A DNA stretch of 64,000 bases, taken from the NCBI GenBank assembly GCA_002723275.1, contig PBNZ01000027.1:62710-126709 (forward strand), written 5' to 3'. Under the pieces are notes generated by a model, which was not told the DNA's origin, searched no databases, and saw nothing but the letters and a program-made list of their open reading frames with translations. Shown one piece after another: positions 23,463 through 29,966 of this stretch (positions are counted from its first letter, which is position 1; the number at the start of each line of letters is the position of its first letter). A program made the translations under genes and the position numbers. The stretch comes from Planctomycetaceae bacterium (GTDB lineage: Bacteria; Planctomycetota; Planctomycetia; Pirellulales; Pirellulaceae).

Positions 23463-24797
23463 TCATTGGTTTGCAATGCGGTACATCGCCTTATCGGTTC
23501 GCAGATAGAGCGAATCGCCGACAGCTGCCCCCGTCGCCATGAACATGCCGTCGAGCTTATTCCGAGCCAGTACTTTGAACTCGCGCCCGGGCTGTAGCAC
23601 GGTGGTTTCTCCCTCTTTGCTGAAGAAAAAGAGCTGATTGTCGGCATAGATCGGGGATGCCCAGTGACTGCCTCCGATCCTTTTCTGCCAGACCTGCTTT
23701 CCTCCCTCCGCCTCAACGCACGTCACAACGCCACCGTCGTCGCTGATCAAATAAATCAAACCGTCCACCAGAATCGGTGACGGTACCTCGCCTACCTGCT
23801 TGGCGAACGTCCAACTGATTTCCGGTCGCATCGGATCCGAATGGTCAATGGCAAGCAGGCGAGATTTCATGAATCCCGTAGCGATGTACGACGTGCCGTT
23901 GTGGAATAAAGGCCGGGCGGAGTTCGAAAAGCCTAACTGGCCATAATTCAGTTTCCAAAGCTCTTCACCGGTATCCGGGTTGTAACCATAAACCCAATCA
24001 GCTCCCGGTGAAATCAATTGCATTTCGTCTCGAAGTGAAACGAGCAAGGGAGTGCAGTACGCCTTTCGCAGCTGAGGATTGCTGTGAAGCTCGCCTGTGC
24101 GTTCCTGCTTCCAGGCAACTTCGCCGGTGGTGGCATTAAGGGCTGCAATGTATTGAACATCACTGCCATCGCAATTAAAGATGATCAGGTTGTTGTGGAA
24201 AACAGGACTACTACCTGGACCATTTTCATGGTTCAAATGCAGTTCGGTGTTCACCCACAAGCGTTCACCGGTGGTCGCATCAACACAAGCGGTCCCGTGC
24301 GTTCCAAAGTGACAATACAAGCGATCTTCATGGAGTACTGGTGTGGGAGTTGCGTAACTATTCTGGACATGAATCGGATCCGGTTTTTCCTCCGTGATTA
24401 ACGGGATCTCGTAAAGGATCTCACCGGTTTGATCGTCGAGACAGATCGCTAAGAGTTCGAGCTCGTCAAGAATTAGCACGGGCTGCGAATTCGTAATGGA
24501 CTCCATTCGTCGTTTACGTTCCTCGGGAGACGATTCCTTCATTCGCGACGTGGTGATCCAGATTCGTCCTTCATCGATCACCGGCGAAGACCAGCCGCGT
24601 CCAGGGACGGGAGTCTTCCAGACGACATTCTCGGACTCGCTCCAACTGGTTGGAAGATTCTCTGCCGTTGCAAGTCCTTGTCCCCCCGGCCCACGCCACT
24701 CTGGCCATTCGGCAGCCATTATCTCGGTGCCGACCGTTAAACCAACCGTCAGAATCGTGAACGGAACAAAACAACACAGAAGATAGTTGCGAAGCAT
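23463..24797 (-). CDS. Exported PQQ-like beta-propeller protein (BamB-type repeats)
   Basis: The 444-residue product has a hydrophobic leader (LLCCFVPFTILTVGLTVG) and then WPEWRGPGGQGLA, the usual opening of planctomycete PQQ-like propellers. Blades repeat patterns such as DATTGERLWVN, NATTGEVAWKQE and NPDTGEELWKLN, each ending in a Trp docking strand. Characterised enzymes with this fold oxidise alcohols with PQQ, but no Cys-Cys or metal-ligand pair was identified here, so a non-enzymatic or scaffold role is as likely. It lies 36 bp upstream of the mannonate-dehydratase-like gene in the same direction and may be part of that operon. Confidence 0.85.
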   Translation of the reverse strand: MLRNYLLCCFVPFTILTVGLTVGTEIMAAEWPEWRGPGGQGLATAENLPTSWSESENVVWKTPVPGRGWSSPVIDEGRIWITTSRMKESSPEERKRRMESITNSQPVLILDELELLAICLDDQTGEILYEIPLITEEKPDPIHVQNSYATPTPVLHEDRLYCHFGTHGTACVDATTGERLWVNTELHLNHENGPGSSPVFHNNLIIFNCDGSDVQYIAALNATTGEVAWKQERTGELHSNPQLRKAYCTPLLVSLRDEMQLISPGADWVYGYNPDTGEELWKLNYGQLGFSNSARPLFHNGTSYIATGFMKSRLLAIDHSDPMRPEISWTFAKQVGEVPSPILVDGLIYLISDDGGVVTCVEAEGGKQVWQKRIGGSHWASPIYADNQLFFFSKEGETTVLQPGREFKVLARNKLDGMFMATGAAVGDSLYLRTDKAMYRIANQ

Positions 24798-25057
24798 TAT
24801 TCATAAACTCTCGTGAGGTCGATAATCGAGCAGGGCCGTAGCCGCAAGAACGACGCAATTATATCGCAAACAATTAGCGGCGACAGCTTTTCAGCGGAAT
24901 CCACTTCTCAAAGGAAAATGAAGCGACTAGCTGTGCGTTCATGAGTTTGGAGCGAGAGCTTTCACAACTCTATCACACCCCGAATTGGGTGGATTCTCAT
25001 GGGTTCCGAGAAGAATTTGAAAGAGGAAAAGACAGGGACTCTTGAAAAGCAGGCGAG

Positions 25058-26209
25058 TCATTCGCTGGATGGTTTTGCGGTAATCACACGTCCTCGCCAG
25101 GCCACCGCCCCCCGAAACCACCAGAGATACAGCGATGATACATAACAGCATGTCAGCGGCAAAATTGCCAAAGGAAAAAAGATCGCCTTGCGCCAGTGGA
25201 TTTGACAAAGCCGTGTGGCAAGCCCTGTCATCCCGAGTTGAGTGGCATAGGCCAATAGGCCAAGCACGCCAAGGGGCCATGAATGCTGCGATAATCCCCA
25301 CCCTAGACACAGGAGAGGTGCCCCGAAGAAGACGACCGGAAACAACACGGCGGGCAGGACCATTGCCTTGGACCTCACAGAACCCCGGATGTTTTTCCTC
25401 AGTCCCCAAAAGGCATCAACGTTATTTTTGAAGAGCCTTACGGTGAGCAATTCTGGCGCCAGTTGGAACCGTGTGCGGTAACCGTTCCTTTTCAAATATC
25501 TCGCGAACTCGACATCATCAAGCATTTCAGTCTTAACCCCGTCGTAGCCGCCAACGGCGTTAAACACCTCGCGTTTTAAAAGAATAAAGGCACCCGCTGC
25601 AACGGCGTGGGGGGAGCCGTCTTCATTGATCGACGGAGGCATAAATCTTACGGTGCCAATCACGAAACAATGCGGCAATAAGGCATTTTCCCAAAACGAC
25701 TCACACACCCAGAGTGGGCAAAGACTTATCAGGGCGGCCTTGGCCTGCTCTCGATTGCGATAGGCGGTAATTAAGCAGCGTGGTTTCATCTTGGAATCGG
25801 CGTCACAAAAAAGCAGATCGGGCGCCGAGCTTTGGTTAGCCCCTTGCTGCATCGCATTCACCTTGCCAAACCAGCCTGGTTGAAGCGGTGGATTATGGAG
25901 CACAGAAACACGAGAGTCCTCCGCGGCGAGCCGATCAGCGATCTTCGGCGTTGCGTCAGAGGACTGATCATTGACGATGAGAATCTTCAGCTCAACGTCT
26001 TCTTGTGCCAATAGTCCACGAATGGTGGATTCGAGGTCCGCCGCTTCATTGCGTGCAGGGACAACAACATCAATGCGAGGCTTCACCTCCGACGCATCAC
26101 CGGCGACAAGAAATCCGATGCTTCGAATCGTTCGCAGGTAGACGACACCAGAAACGATCGCAAACAACATCACGGCGACGCAACAGGAAATGATGACCCA
26201 AGAGAACAT
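25058..26209 (-). CDS. Membrane-bound family 2 glycosyltransferase
   Basis: The 383-residue protein has an N-terminal membrane segment (residues 4-24), a GT-A catalytic domain, and several C-terminal membrane segments from about 285. The catalytic domain shows IDVVVPARNEAADLESTI, LIVNDQSSDAT, the LFCDADSKM metal-binding DxD-type motif, and DDVEFARYLKRNGYR as the probable catalytic-base region, followed by FWGLRKNIRGS. The layout is like hopanoid-cluster HpnB-type and other inverting lipid glycosyltransferases. Acceptor and donor are unknown. Its start is 12 bp downstream of the OsmC gene stop on the same strand, which suggests co-transcription. Confidence 0.87.
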   Translation of the reverse strand: MFSWVIISCCVAVMLFAIVSGVVYLRTIRSIGFLVAGDASEVKPRIDVVVPARNEAADLESTIRGLLAQEDVELKILIVNDQSSDATPKIADRLAAEDSRVSVLHNPPLQPGWFGKVNAMQQGANQSSAPDLLFCDADSKMKPRCLITAYRNREQAKAALISLCPLWVCESFWENALLPHCFVIGTVRFMPPSINEDGSPHAVAAGAFILLKREVFNAVGGYDGVKTEMLDDVEFARYLKRNGYRTRFQLAPELLTVRLFKNNVDAFWGLRKNIRGSVRSKAMVLPAVLFPVVFFGAPLLCLGWGLSQHSWPLGVLGLLAYATQLGMTGLATRLCQIHWRKAIFFPLAILPLTCCYVSSLYLWWFRGAVAWRGRVITAKPSSE

Positions 26210-26221
26210 AGGCGAGTCGAG

Positions 26222-26695
26222 CTATTCCTCGATGAGCTCCAGCTCCCAACTAATCTCGATGCAATTCCGAACGGATTGGTATGCCGGGCAAAAATCGGCG
26301 TAACTCTCCAGGACTCGATTGACCGCTTCTTCGCTACCGCGTGGAGCCTTTAACTGGAAATTCACGCGAATGGCTGTGATTTGCAAGACGCCATTCACAT
26401 CCCCGATGTCTCCCTCAACTTTTGCAAACAAATTCTCGGCCGATGAAATCTGCCGCACATCCAGTGCGGAACCCAGGGTGCCGACCAGTCAGCCAGCGAC
26501 ACCGGCGATCATGTGGTCCAAGGTGGCCGGATATTCGGGACCGGGAATCTCCCGCCCATACTTCTGTTGATAGAATTCCTTGATGCCACCGTGAATTCCA
26601 AATGGGATCGTCCCATCAAACCCCTCTATCCTGGCTGTCCGATGAGGCCCTGCATGCTTGTGAATGGTCAGACGACTTGTGTGTGCGACGGTCAT
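26222..26695 (-). CDS. OsmC-family peroxidase with TGA at the peroxidatic cysteine; candidate selenoprotein
   Basis: One continuous frame from the ATG at 26693-26695 to TAG at 26222 is broken only by TGA at 26489-26491. Reading it as residue U69 gives a 157-residue OsmC/YhfA-like protein of normal length. The flanks are TLDHMIAGVAG before and LVGTLGSALDVR after. In OsmC-like proteins this position is the conserved reactive cysteine (AGC..GTL pattern). The second conserved cysteine is present as Cys136 in ADFCPAYQSV. Such enzymes reduce organic hydroperoxides using a Cys pair, and OsmC-like selenoproteins have been described from marine metagenomes. A perfect 6-bp hairpin follows 23-39 nt after the U. 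An upstream TTG (26725) is an alternative start. Selenocysteine is strongly favoured over a stop. Confidence 0.85.
26453..26469 (-). promoter_or_regulatory. SECIS-like stem-loop after the OsmC TGA
   Basis: CCGCAC and GTGCGG form a perfect 6-bp stem around a UGGAU loop, at positions 23-39 counted from the U of the TGA. The apical loop (29-33) lies inside the usual bacterial window of about 16-37 nt. A shorter alternative hairpin at 10-24 with a CUG loop is also possible, so the functional fold is not settled. Confidence 0.5.
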
Positions 26696-26955
26696 AATCG
26701 GTGACTCCGTATCGAACTGTGACAATGCAGTGAGAGCGTCTTTTTACCAGAATGAGGATGAGTGATGAAGGTTGCAGGTCATAAGTTCCCACGACTTCTT
26801 CCGCTTGAACTATTCCTGCCCGCTCGACGCTGATTACCCAATCCAGTAGTTTGTTTTCCTGAAGAACAGCTGCCTCGAAAAAACGCCCGCATCGGGATCT
26901 GCAGAAACAGCGTTGCGGAATAAAAACTGGTCACTCGCACCCCGGAAGGATGATC

Positions 26956-27963
26956 ATGAAAGCTCAAGTGCTCAATGCGATCAAGCAACCGCTCAACATG
27001 GAACATCACGACGACCTATCCCCGGACAATTCCGAGGTGGTGATTGAGATTGTCGCGGCAGCCTTGAATCGGCGCGATTACTGGATCACGCAGGGGATGT
27101 ATCCCGGAATTGGGACTCCTGTGACCTTAGGATCGGACGGTGCTGGTCGTGTCGTGAGCTGCGGTTCCGACGTTTCCGATTTGGCTGCGGGTGATGAAGT
27201 GATCATCAATCCTGGTTGGAGATGGGGTGACAATCCGATGGTCCAGGACGAAGCCTTTCGTATTCTCGGCATGCCCGACAACGGTACCTTCGCAACGCAG
27301 TTAGTCGCGCCGCGAGAACAGGTGTATCCGAAACCGCCCCACTTGAATTGGCATGAGGCCAGCGCGCTCCCGTTGGCAGGGGTTACTGCTTATCGTGCCG
27401 TGATCACCCAGGGTAAACTATCCCGCGGCGAACGCTGCCTCGTCACCGGGATCGGCGGCGGTGTCGCAACCTTTGCCGTCCAGTTTGCCGCAGCATTGGG
27501 AGCTGAGGTGACCGTGACCTCCTCGTCGGATGAAAAGATTGCCAACGCCGAGCGTTTTGGCGCCACAGCAGGCTTCAACTATACCCAGGACGGCTGGACG
27601 CAGCAGGCTCGTGACCGTATCGGGGAATTTGATTTGATTATCGATGGAGCCGGAGGAGCAGACTACAACCAATTAGTTGATCTCGCCGCTTTCGGTGGAA
27701 GGATCGTCAATTACGGTGCCACGGCTGGGCCACCTGCCAAGTTTGATCTTTTCAAGCTGTTCTGGAAACAACTCAAACTTACTGGATCGACCATGGGATC
27801 TCCGCAAGACTTCCAATCGATGCTCGATTTCGTCAATGAGCATCAGATTCGGCCTGTTGTGGATGGAGCCTACCCCCTGGAGGGCGTGAACGAAGCACTT
27901 GATCGAATGAAGAACAGCAAGCAACTCGGCAAAATTATTCTTGAGGTTTCGTCGATCGGCTAA
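26956..27963 (+). CDS. Zinc-independent MDR alcohol dehydrogenase/quinone oxidoreductase-like
   Basis: The second ATG (26956) is preferred: the Shine-Dalgarno GGAAGGA ends only one base before an ATG at 26950 but sits at normal spacing from 26956. The 335-residue product is a medium-chain dehydrogenase/reductase. The N-terminal catalytic part has LNRRDYWITQGMYPG, typical of quinone-oxidoreductase-like members, and VTLGSDGAGRVV in place of the zinc-binding GHE. The cofactor part has LVTGIGGGVATFAVQFA for NADP binding. The structural zinc cysteine cluster is absent. The expected reaction is NAD(P)H-dependent reduction of an enone or quinone. The following M41-like gene starts 37 bp after its stop. 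Confidence 0.88.
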   Translation: MKAQVLNAIKQPLNMEHHDDLSPDNSEVVIEIVAAALNRRDYWITQGMYPGIGTPVTLGSDGAGRVVSCGSDVSDLAAGDEVIINPGWRWGDNPMVQDEAFRILGMPDNGTFATQLVAPREQVYPKPPHLNWHEASALPLAGVTAYRAVITQGKLSRGERCLVTGIGGGVATFAVQFAAALGAEVTVTSSSDEKIANAERFGATAGFNYTQDGWTQQARDRIGEFDLIIDGAGGADYNQLVDLAAFGGRIVNYGATAGPPAKFDLFKLFWKQLKLTGSTMGSPQDFQSMLDFVNEHQIRPVVDGAYPLEGVNEALDRMKNSKQLGKIILEVSSIG

Positions 27964-28000
27964 AACAGCACGCAAACCGGCTCAATCGGGCGAGGAATCG

Positions 28001-28480
28001 GTGTCAGACATTGTTGCGTATCATGAAGCAGGGCATGCCTTTGCCGCATTTTATTTGGGGGCAATCGTGCACCGTGTGACCATCACTCCTGATCGTGACG
28101 ATGGCCCCGAGCGTTATGGTGATACAGAAATCCATTGGCCGCGGGATAAGTTTGACCCCGCGTCCTTCACGCAAAATGCGGTTTTCGTCGCGCTCGCTGG
28201 ACCTGTCGCCGAAATGCTCTATCGCGGCGAACCCTATCACCCAGGGTTTATTCCTGAATGGTCCAATGATTGGCGAGTTGCCTGGGACGCCGCTGAGGGC
28301 CAAATCAGCGAACCTAAGCAACGTCTCTCATTTCTCGAACGCCGGGTCGTCGAGATTTACCAGTTCCTCGACGAGACCCGGAACTGGGCTGCCGTGGCGG
28401 CTCTTGCCGACGAATTGCAAGCCCATGAAACCTTGGAACAGGAAGAGGTCGCCTCCGTCGTGTCGGTTTGGCTTCCCTAG
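28001..28480 (+). CDS. Stand-alone M41-like (FtsH peptidase-type) metalloprotease-like protein
   Basis: The protein is short and has the zinc motif HEAGH eight residues from the proposed start, in YHEAGHAFAAFYLGA, as in the peptidase half of FtsH. A later NAVFVALAGPVAEMLY segment resembles the M41 helix region carrying AGP-type sequence, and SNDWRVAWDAA may supply the third metal ligand (Asp). The AAA ATPase domain is absent. The GTG at 28001 is chosen because GAGGAA lies 5 bp before it; a TTG at 27941 would add 20 residues and overlap the preceding gene. Partners and substrate are unknown. It may act as a peptidase, or bind metal only. Confidence 0.75.
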   Translation: MSDIVAYHEAGHAFAAFYLGAIVHRVTITPDRDDGPERYGDTEIHWPRDKFDPASFTQNAVFVALAGPVAEMLYRGEPYHPGFIPEWSNDWRVAWDAAEGQISEPKQRLSFLERRVVEIYQFLDETRNWAAVAALADELQAHETLEQEEVASVVSVWLP

Positions 28481-28586
28481 CCTTTTGCCCAGCAGTCAAT
28501 TACCAGAACATTTGTTATCCTGAGCATGTCTTTTTCGGCAATTCAACGAGCCCTCAACTCTCATCGAATACCAGGAATGCTTAAAA

Positions 28587-29966
28587 ATGAGCGAACATCG
28601 CGATGCGGATGCCGTGCCCGAATTCTTCCAACCGGCTTACGGTGCCAGGCTCATGTCCGAACCAATTCCCAAGAACAGCATCAGCGATCCGTGCCTACCA
28701 CCTCAAGTGGTTTATGACTTGATTCGAGACGAATTGATCCTGGACGGAAGCTCGCGGTTGAATCTGGCCACCTTCGTGACGACGTTCATGGAGAAAGAGG
28801 CGAAGACCCTCATGGCCGAAACGTTCGACAAGAACATGATTGACAAGGATGAATATCCGCAAACAGCTCAAATCGAACAGCGTTGCGTGCGGATGATTTC
28901 AGAACTTTGGAATGGCCCCACAGAAGATCAGGCCACGGGGTGTTCCACCATCGGTTCGAGCGAAGCCGCCATGCTCGGCGGCATGGCGCTTAAATGGAAA
29001 TGGCGAGCACAGCAACGCGCTGCGGGCAAGCCAACGGATAAACCCAACATGGTCATGGGCATTAATGTTCAAGTCTGTTGGGAGAAGTTCTGCCGTTACT
29101 GGGACATTGAACCCCGTTTTGTGCCGATGGAAGGAAATCGTTTTTGCCTTTCGGCCGAAGAAGCTGTGAAGCGTGTCGATGAAAATACGATCGGCGTCGT
29201 TGGCATTATGGGCAGCACTTTTGACGGCCGTTATGAAGACATCAAGTCGATCAGCAACGCGCTTGATGAGTACGAAAAGTCGAGCGGACTCGATATCCCA
29301 ATTCATGTCGATGGCGCCAGCGGTGGATTCGTCGCTCCGTTCTTGCAGCCGGACATTGAATGGGACTTTCGGCTCCCCAGAGTCCACTCAATCAACGCTT
29401 CCGGTCACAAGTTCGGTCTCGTCTATCCAGGCGTCGGCTGGATTATCTGGAAGAATCGAGAGGCGTTGCCCGAGGATCTCGTATTTCATTGCAACTATCT
29501 CGGTGGCGACCTGCCGAACTTTGCCCTTAACTTCTCCCGCCCAGGCAATCAAGTCATTGCTCAGTACTACAACTTTTTGCGTTTAGGCCGCGAGGGATAT
29601 CGACGCATCCATCAGACCAGTCAGGAAGTAGCGCTTTACCTGTCAGGATCAATCAAGGAAATGGGACCCTTTGACCTGATCTCGGATGGAAGTGACATTC
29701 CTGTCTTCGCCTTTACGACGAACGATTCAGCAACCTTCAGCTCATTTGATATGTCTGACAAGCTGCGAGAACGAGGCTGGCTCGTGCCGGCCTATACGTT
29801 CCCCAAGAATCGCGAAGATATTGCGGCCATGCGTTGCGTTTGCAAGGAAGGATTCACCCATGACCTTGCCGAATCACTGGTCAAAGACATGAAGGATGCG
29901 ATTGAGTTCTTCAATTCGCGCCCCGATCACGTACAACGGAAATTCGGTTCGGCGTTTCATCACTAA
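28587..29966 (+). CDS. gadB: Glutamate decarboxylase
   Basis: The 459-residue product matches PLP-dependent glutamate decarboxylases of the GadA/GadB group in length and motif order. Residues 56-80 contain SRLNLATFVTTFMEKEA. GCSTIGSSEAAMLGG (118-132) binds the substrate and cofactor. HVDGASGGFVAPF at 240-252 carries the Asp that pairs with the PLP ring nitrogen, and INASGHKFGL places the Schiff-base lysine at Lys275. The C-terminus ends in His-His, resembling the histidine-ended tail that plugs the active site in E. coli GadB. The reaction is glutamate to GABA plus CO2, consuming a proton, and would support acid resistance or GABA metabolism. No glutamate/GABA antiporter is adjacent. Confidence 0.93.
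   Translation: MSEHRDADAVPEFFQPAYGARLMSEPIPKNSISDPCLPPQVVYDLIRDELILDGSSRLNLATFVTTFMEKEAKTLMAETFDKNMIDKDEYPQTAQIEQRCVRMISELWNGPTEDQATGCSTIGSSEAAMLGGMALKWKWRAQQRAAGKPTDKPNMVMGINVQVCWEKFCRYWDIEPRFVPMEGNRFCLSAEEAVKRVDENTIGVVGIMGSTFDGRYEDIKSISNALDEYEKSSGLDIPIHVDGASGGFVAPFLQPDIEWDFRLPRVHSINASGHKFGLVYPGVGWIIWKNREALPEDLVFHCNYLGGDLPNFALNFSRPGNQVIAQYYNFLRLGREGYRRIHQTSQEVALYLSGSIKEMGPFDLISDGSDIPVFAFTTNDSATFSSFDMSDKLRERGWLVPAYTFPKNREDIAAMRCVCKEGFTHDLAESLVKDMKDAIEFFNSRPDHVQRKFGSAFHH

Follow-up and report, generated by a model that had tools for sequence, protein, structure and literature searches.

The question raised by this locus is whether a TGA codon, located exactly where members of the OsmC family carry their reactive cysteine, terminates a reading frame or is read as selenocysteine (Sec). 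The window analysed, a stretch of 64,000 nucleotides from a Planctomycetaceae bacterium, contains at positions 26695-26222 a frame which, as stated in the original prediction, is broken by the TGA at 26489-26491 alone; the gene was established to lie on the minus strand, a detail absent from that prediction. Translation with TGA read as U gave a single U, at residue 69, in the context GVAG-U-LVGTLGSAL, and confirmed these flanks as well as the Cys136 in FCPAYQ (Table 1). Ordinary ORF calling represents this gene as two 78-aa ORFs, at 26489-26725 and 26222-26458. We consider it highly probable that the gene specifies a selenoprotein of the OsmC/Ohr superfamily whose UGA is decoded by way of a downstream hairpin, SelB and Sec-tRNA, in keeping with what had been predicted, and the conservation of the TGA, the SECIS-like hairpin and the decoding genes described below all support this assignment. 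The reactive residue of the protein would very probably be selenocysteine, a rare amino acid; actual insertion of Sec at residue 69 is something that we infer from sequence.

Table 1. Features of the putative selenoprotein gene, in positions of the window.
Feature	Position	Strand	Details or basis
OsmC-superfamily selenoprotein gene (predicted)	26222..26695	minus	ATG start, 157 residues, TAG stop
In-frame TGA (predicted Sec69) at reactive-Cys place of OsmC	26489..26491	minus	ortholog codon and alignment to 1qwi
Motif U-L-V-G-T, Sec69 to Thr73	26477..26491	minus	Gly at +3 and Thr/Ser at +4 in 47/47
SECIS-like hairpin CCGCAC-UGGAU-GUGCGG	26453..26469	minus	stem 19 nt and loop 25 nt past UGA
Cys136, presumed resolving residue, in CPAYQS	26288..26290	minus	conservation and alignment to Cys125

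Membership of the OsmC family was upheld by a Pfam OsmC (PF02566) match that runs across the TGA (residues 56-151, 40.3 bits against a cut-off of 27.5), and the same Pfam family was found in 28/28 members of the branch to which the gene belongs, here called UxxGT/S after its motif. An AlphaFold model of the protein (mean pLDDT 95.9) has a predicted OsmC/Ohr fold, with OsmC and Ohr structures in the top rows of a fold comparison (best 2onf, Z 14.8, rmsd 2.1, 139 residues aligned), and sequence identity to the 50 OsmC/Ohr chains listed is 9 to 18%. Residues 58-80 of the predicted model form a long central helix spanning residue 69. In the alignment to E. coli OsmC (1qwi) residue 69, as counted along the printed alignment, corresponds to Cys59 and residue 136 to Cys125, which we take to be the redox pair of that enzyme; the TGA does, as had been proposed, replace one half of the OsmC cysteine pair. 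Cys136 is invariant in 28/28 members and Cys-Pro is present at this place in 47/47 full genes, while Arg19 is likewise invariant in the sequence alignment of the 28 members. As compared to OsmC/Ohr peroxidases (PF02566; 1qwi and 1nye, E. coli OsmC; 1zb9, X. fastidiosa Ohr) the protein shares the fold, here a predicted one, the two redox positions and a helix-borne reactive residue, but differs in its Sec in place of the reactive Cys, in its low identity (9 to 18% for the chains listed), and in having an acidic residue at -9 and Leu at -10 relative to Sec.

In the mechanism that we favour, the hairpin immediately downstream brings in SelB with Sec-tRNA and so leads the ribosome to decode the UGA at 26489-26491 as selenocysteine. 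Sec69 would then occupy, within the long central helix, the position of the reactive Cys in OsmC, with Cys136 as the likely resolving residue. By analogy with OsmC and Ohr the selenolate would reduce an organic hydroperoxide or a small oxidant of similar kind, a selenenylsulfide would then form between Sec69 and Cys136, and this would in turn be reduced by a dithiol donor. Activity, substrate and reductant are proposed on the model of the OsmC/Ohr enzymes, a model under which a peroxidase is the likely reading; that Sec makes it a more reactive one, as put forward in the original prediction, would be a further supposition. Ohr is described, in the part of the source relied upon, as employing a Cys-Arg-Glu triad to reduce organic hydroperoxides (PMC5962072).

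The alternative that best withstands the evidence is that the gene does encode a selenoprotein, but one that is not a hydroperoxide reductase and catalyses another reaction, for instance on persulfides, selenium compounds or other electrophiles; this we regard as possible, if somewhat doubtful. Consistent with this alternative are the low identity given above (9 to 18%, all 50 chains being solved structures) and a score of 14.1 bits on the Ohr model TIGR03561, for which the cut-off is 88.85; none of the NCBIfam peroxidase models came near its cut-off for this protein. Relative to Sec, 47/47 genes have Leu at -10 and Asp at -9, and by residue count -10 is presumably the place of the catalytic Glu in Ohr. 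The activity of the OsmC relative YhfA is, moreover, called unknown in the portion of PMC5962072 drawn upon here. Against this alternative stand the retention of both OsmC redox positions, the invariance of Arg19 (28/28, in sequence only), and the OsmC and Ohr structures that are the nearest folds of the predicted model.

The surroundings of the gene likewise provide no conserved neighbourhood that would indicate a pathway, a further point in favour of a non-peroxidase function. Comparison of 27 loci (the gene at 26695-26222, L021-L026 and L130-L149; ORFs of at least 90 aa, blastp at 1e-8, clusters of at least three loci) yielded, antisense frames and gene pieces aside, a widest cluster of 6/27 loci in which distance and orientation vary; frames antisense to the gene itself recur at 18 of the 27 loci. 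Two other neighbour clusters comprise three loci each, the related L024, L132 and L133. Assigning a function from neighbouring genes was rejected on the grounds that no shared pathway cluster was present in the 27 loci. A glycosyltransferase-like gene (25058-26209, minus strand) starts 12 nt past the stop of the selenoprotein gene, and the two may form one transcript; no shared cluster for this neighbour was found in relatives among the 27 loci. A divergent quinone oxidoreductase-like gene lies upstream, both gene names being our own reading. L024, L132 (G373) and L133 (G249) have genes in common on both flanks, a local synteny not seen elsewhere.

The preferred reading, that of an OsmC-type selenoprotein, presupposes a Sec decoding pathway, and the original prediction was open to refutation by the absence of a Sec tRNA or SelB. 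Both were found in the genome of the gene (an assembly of 6.8 Mb in 47 contigs, 96.6% complete with 3.56% contamination), together with SelA and SelD, giving the full set of SelA, SelB, SelC and SelD. The tRNA-Sec is located on contig C29 (71.3 bits with the Rfam model; identified by ARAGORN as tRNA-SeC with anticodon tca), the genes for SelB (386 bits) and SelA (578 bits) adjoin each other on the same contig, and SelD is on C44 (356 bits). This selD gene (L098, G000:C44:1006-1932, minus strand) has an in-frame TGA of its own, in SCAGUAGK, which we take to be the usual Sec place in SelD, and the SelD of this genome is therefore probably a selenoprotein too.

The tRNA-Sec model was matched at E 1e-7 in 265/397 genomes of the class, a figure to which tRNAs for serine and leucine contribute; these reach at most about 47 to 53 bits on the model. 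Among the carriers tested for decoding genes, a sample that includes 1 of the 36 carriers of the second phylum described below, SelA was over its cut-off in 12/13 other carriers (the exception being G398, a 3.5 Mb assembly), and tRNA-Sec was present in 9/13 carriers, own genome included, as confirmed by ARAGORN in G000, G397, G400, G401, G402 and G403 and from the Rfam score alone in G103, G249 and G323. No recognisable tRNA-Sec was found in the other four of these 13, G044, G373, G398 and G399, which weighs against the selenoprotein reading; there the best matches were Ser, Leu, Ser and Gly tRNAs, respectively; three of the four have SelA, and G398 is without SelA also. Gaps in draft assemblies are the simplest reason for these four cases, which may otherwise reflect an unusual tRNA-Sec.

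A 6-bp hairpin within the range of bacterial SECIS elements had been predicted downstream of the TGA, and it was found to be both present and conserved, 25 nt separating UGA and loop. A 2026 review gives as limits for such elements a loop of 3-9 nt and a stem of 4-16 bp (PMC13188914, figure legend), along with a G within the first two nucleotides of the loop, a UGA-to-loop distance of 16-37 nt and an energy of <= -7.5 (PMC13188914, same portion of the source). The hairpin of the gene at 26695-26222, with its 5-nt loop UGGAU, 6 bp, distance of 25 nt and -9.8 kcal/mol, lies within these limits, as do hairpins in 47/48 genes as compared to 843/4800 synonymous shuffles; L073 is the one gene of the 48 in which no hairpin within the limits was found, a point against the selenoprotein reading. 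Two distances were distinguished among 47 orthologs in the region 3-45 nt past the UGA, the loop being located either 25-26 nt (13 genes, including the present one) or 18-20 nt (the other 34 genes) past the UGA. L028 (SAR324) has its loop at the far position, though the tree places it, weakly, with the other group.

In the 13 genes with the same hairpin type standard pairing was observed in 78/78 cells, and two of the six stem pairs change on both sides, the main one being A-U in 7 genes and G-C in 6. The covariation score, like the percentage paired, was matched by 0/500 shuffles, and two cruder measures of the five used for covariation were ordinary (83/500 and 155/500 shuffles); control stems slid along the same 13 genes pair at 15 to 62%. 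At the hairpin of the gene itself 0/300 synonymous shuffles fold equally well. In this comparison as in the next, the fold windows were picked after the folds had been seen. Hairpins at their own place had a mean z against synonymous shuffles of -2.53 in the 13-gene group (13/13 under -1) and of -1.71 in the 34-gene group (29/34 under -1), and at the place of the other group they were no better than such shuffles (mean z 0.02 and -0.36). The signal of the 34-gene group is less clean, a Leu-Ala codon pair that recurs there making up part of the hairpin arms. A 45-nt fold of the gene's RNA was not better than dinucleotide shuffles (z 0.49, 142/200 as good), and the case for a SECIS element is consequently one of conservation and not of stability. 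An Rfam scan of positions 24000-29000 returned two chance-level matches only.

These observations bear on a further alternative, whereby the UGA is read as another residue, be it by a genome-wide recoding or by simple suppression, or each half is produced as a protein of its own. Sequence by itself cannot separate readthrough from Sec insertion, yet the UGA falls on the column of the catalytic residue and is followed by a SECIS element with paired changes, the Sec pathway is present in the genome, and the SelD encoded there has an in-frame TGA too; separate halves would, in addition, cut the central helix 58-80, which spans residue 69. We consider this alternative very improbable, and selenocysteine remains the preferred reading of the codon.

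Conservation of the TGA was followed through several sets of genomes. Codon 69 is TGA in 8/8 GTDB relatives with 39-69% identity to the protein, in a scan that was seeded with peptides of the Sec-containing query and so favours close kin. The searches of the class, of a second phylum (that of G401) and of additional genomes were independent of codon 69, the additional search having largely redrawn second-phylum genomes and thus adding little. The class sample (397 genomes) gave 9 matches, of which 6, own genome included, were strong with one TGA each, and 3 were weak (E 5e-4 to 1e-3) and without a stop. Profile matches were obtained in 43 of 395 genomes of the second phylum; 36 were strong, with the TGA in 36/36, and the other 7 genomes had weak matches only, namely G596 and the six genomes G424, G425, G580, G604, G627 and G783, in which the match was without a stop. 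The weak-match loci that were read are L092-L096, from five of these six genomes (G424 left out), and L097 is a second, weak match of G689. Within G596 the match (L091, G596:C20:12231-12362) is a gene fragment that lies near a contig end, contains a TAA and may be a decayed copy. A strong match was thus present in 49 genomes overall (47 with full genes, together with G429, and with G451, whose gene is cut by contig ends), and the TGA is kept in 49/49.

On either side of the TGA synonymous changes predominate in each of the pairs compared. For 12 genes near the one at 26695-26222 (66 pairs) the median pN/pS was 0.22 before and 0.43 after the TGA, for 16 other genes (120 pairs) it was 0.20 and 0.36, and past the TGA no pair reached 1 (maxima of 0.70 and 0.71 for the two sets); as judged from these ratios, purifying selection acts on both sides of the TGA in each of the pairs. 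An error of sequencing at the TGA, or a pseudogene in which an ordinary Cys-containing OsmC had recently acquired a nonsense mutation, could be entertained since the assembly is a draft (47 contigs, 3.56% contamination) and a fragmentary relative with TAA exists in G596, but this explanation is so improbable that it was rejected, as the same TGA is common to orthologs (49/49 carriers), a check that the original prediction withstood, and as pN/pS past the TGA stays below 1 throughout.

Profile or protein searches of roughly 800 genomes found no Cys ortholog of the UxxGT/S branch. Taken with the TGA in 49/49 carriers, the position of the Sec sequences on one side of a single branch of the tree, their occurrence in at least three phyla and the two SECIS distances, which differ by about 6 nt, this makes it fairly probable, for the genomes sampled in this analysis, that the branch is a Sec-only one. 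Such a branch would be an enzyme for which Cys does not suffice, and its chemistry may therefore differ from that of ordinary OsmC. According to the section of PMC1794560 cited here, most selenoprotein families occur mostly with Cys, whereas for a small number, GrdA among them, Cys homologs are scarce or absent. The present branch resembles GrdA in that Sec is apparently its established form, a Cys version not having been found; it differs in belonging to an unrelated protein family, and in that the wider OsmC family is mostly Cys, the branch being Sec-only in the sample. As no return to Cys was seen in a family that is mostly Cys, the branch offers a natural test of the abilities of Sec versus Cys.

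OsmC-like selenoproteins have been reported before, and the portions of the reports used here cover 3 sequences with a UXXT motif from the Sargasso Sea survey of 2005 (PMC1088965) and 5 sequences with UxxT from the GOS survey (PMC2398784); reviews of 2022 and 2026 list an OsmC-like selenoprotein once, as UxxT, in the parts consulted (PMC9312934, PMC13188914). NCBIfam has a model NF041052, OsmC_like_Se, OsmC-related (seleno)protein, and from motif and name we infer that it represents the published UxxT family. As far as those portions describe them, the published proteins and the present branch have in common the OsmC fold family, Sec in place of the reactive Cys, a bacterial SECIS and carriers that include marine and sediment bacteria. 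The published motif is UxxT, however, whereas here it is U-x-x-G-T/S, with Gly at +3 and Thr/Ser at +4 in 47/47. On NF041052 the protein at 26695-26222 scored 18.2 bits against a cut-off of 95, and membership of that family was rejected; 24/28 members of the UxxGT/S branch match the model weakly (best E 1e-6). By its sequence motif, and by the score of the present protein (18 bits versus 95), the branch is separate from the known OsmC-like selenoproteins, and no description of it was found in the open-access literature, supplements aside. Standard annotation splits selenoprotein genes in two, and a branch like this one is hence easily missed. With it, the selenoproteins of planctomycetes and of Desulfobacterota-type bacteria gain a family of wide distribution. 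One member of NF041052 over the cut-off was found in 377 genomes of the class, L100 (G281:C33:6925-7368, minus strand), a Cys form of that OsmC family with C-T-L-T.

A tree was built by a quick method from 48 Sec sequences and 18 with Cys (the latter being L092, L095, L096, L097 and 14 of the 30 loci L100 and L101-L129). The Sec rows make up one side of one branch, with an SH-aLRT of 93, under the 95 mark, in a tree of long branches. No relative was found on viral contigs or on plasmids, and within its own family the gene was present, in the class sample, in its own genome only. The GTDB relatives are labelled Planctomycetota, Pirellulaceae, Planctomycetaceae, Deltaproteobacteria, Desulfobacteraceae, Syntrophobacterales and SAR324, and the carriers belong to at least three phyla. 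On the tree the Deltaproteobacteria and Desulfobacteraceae genes fall among planctomycete genes, which suggests transfer between phyla.
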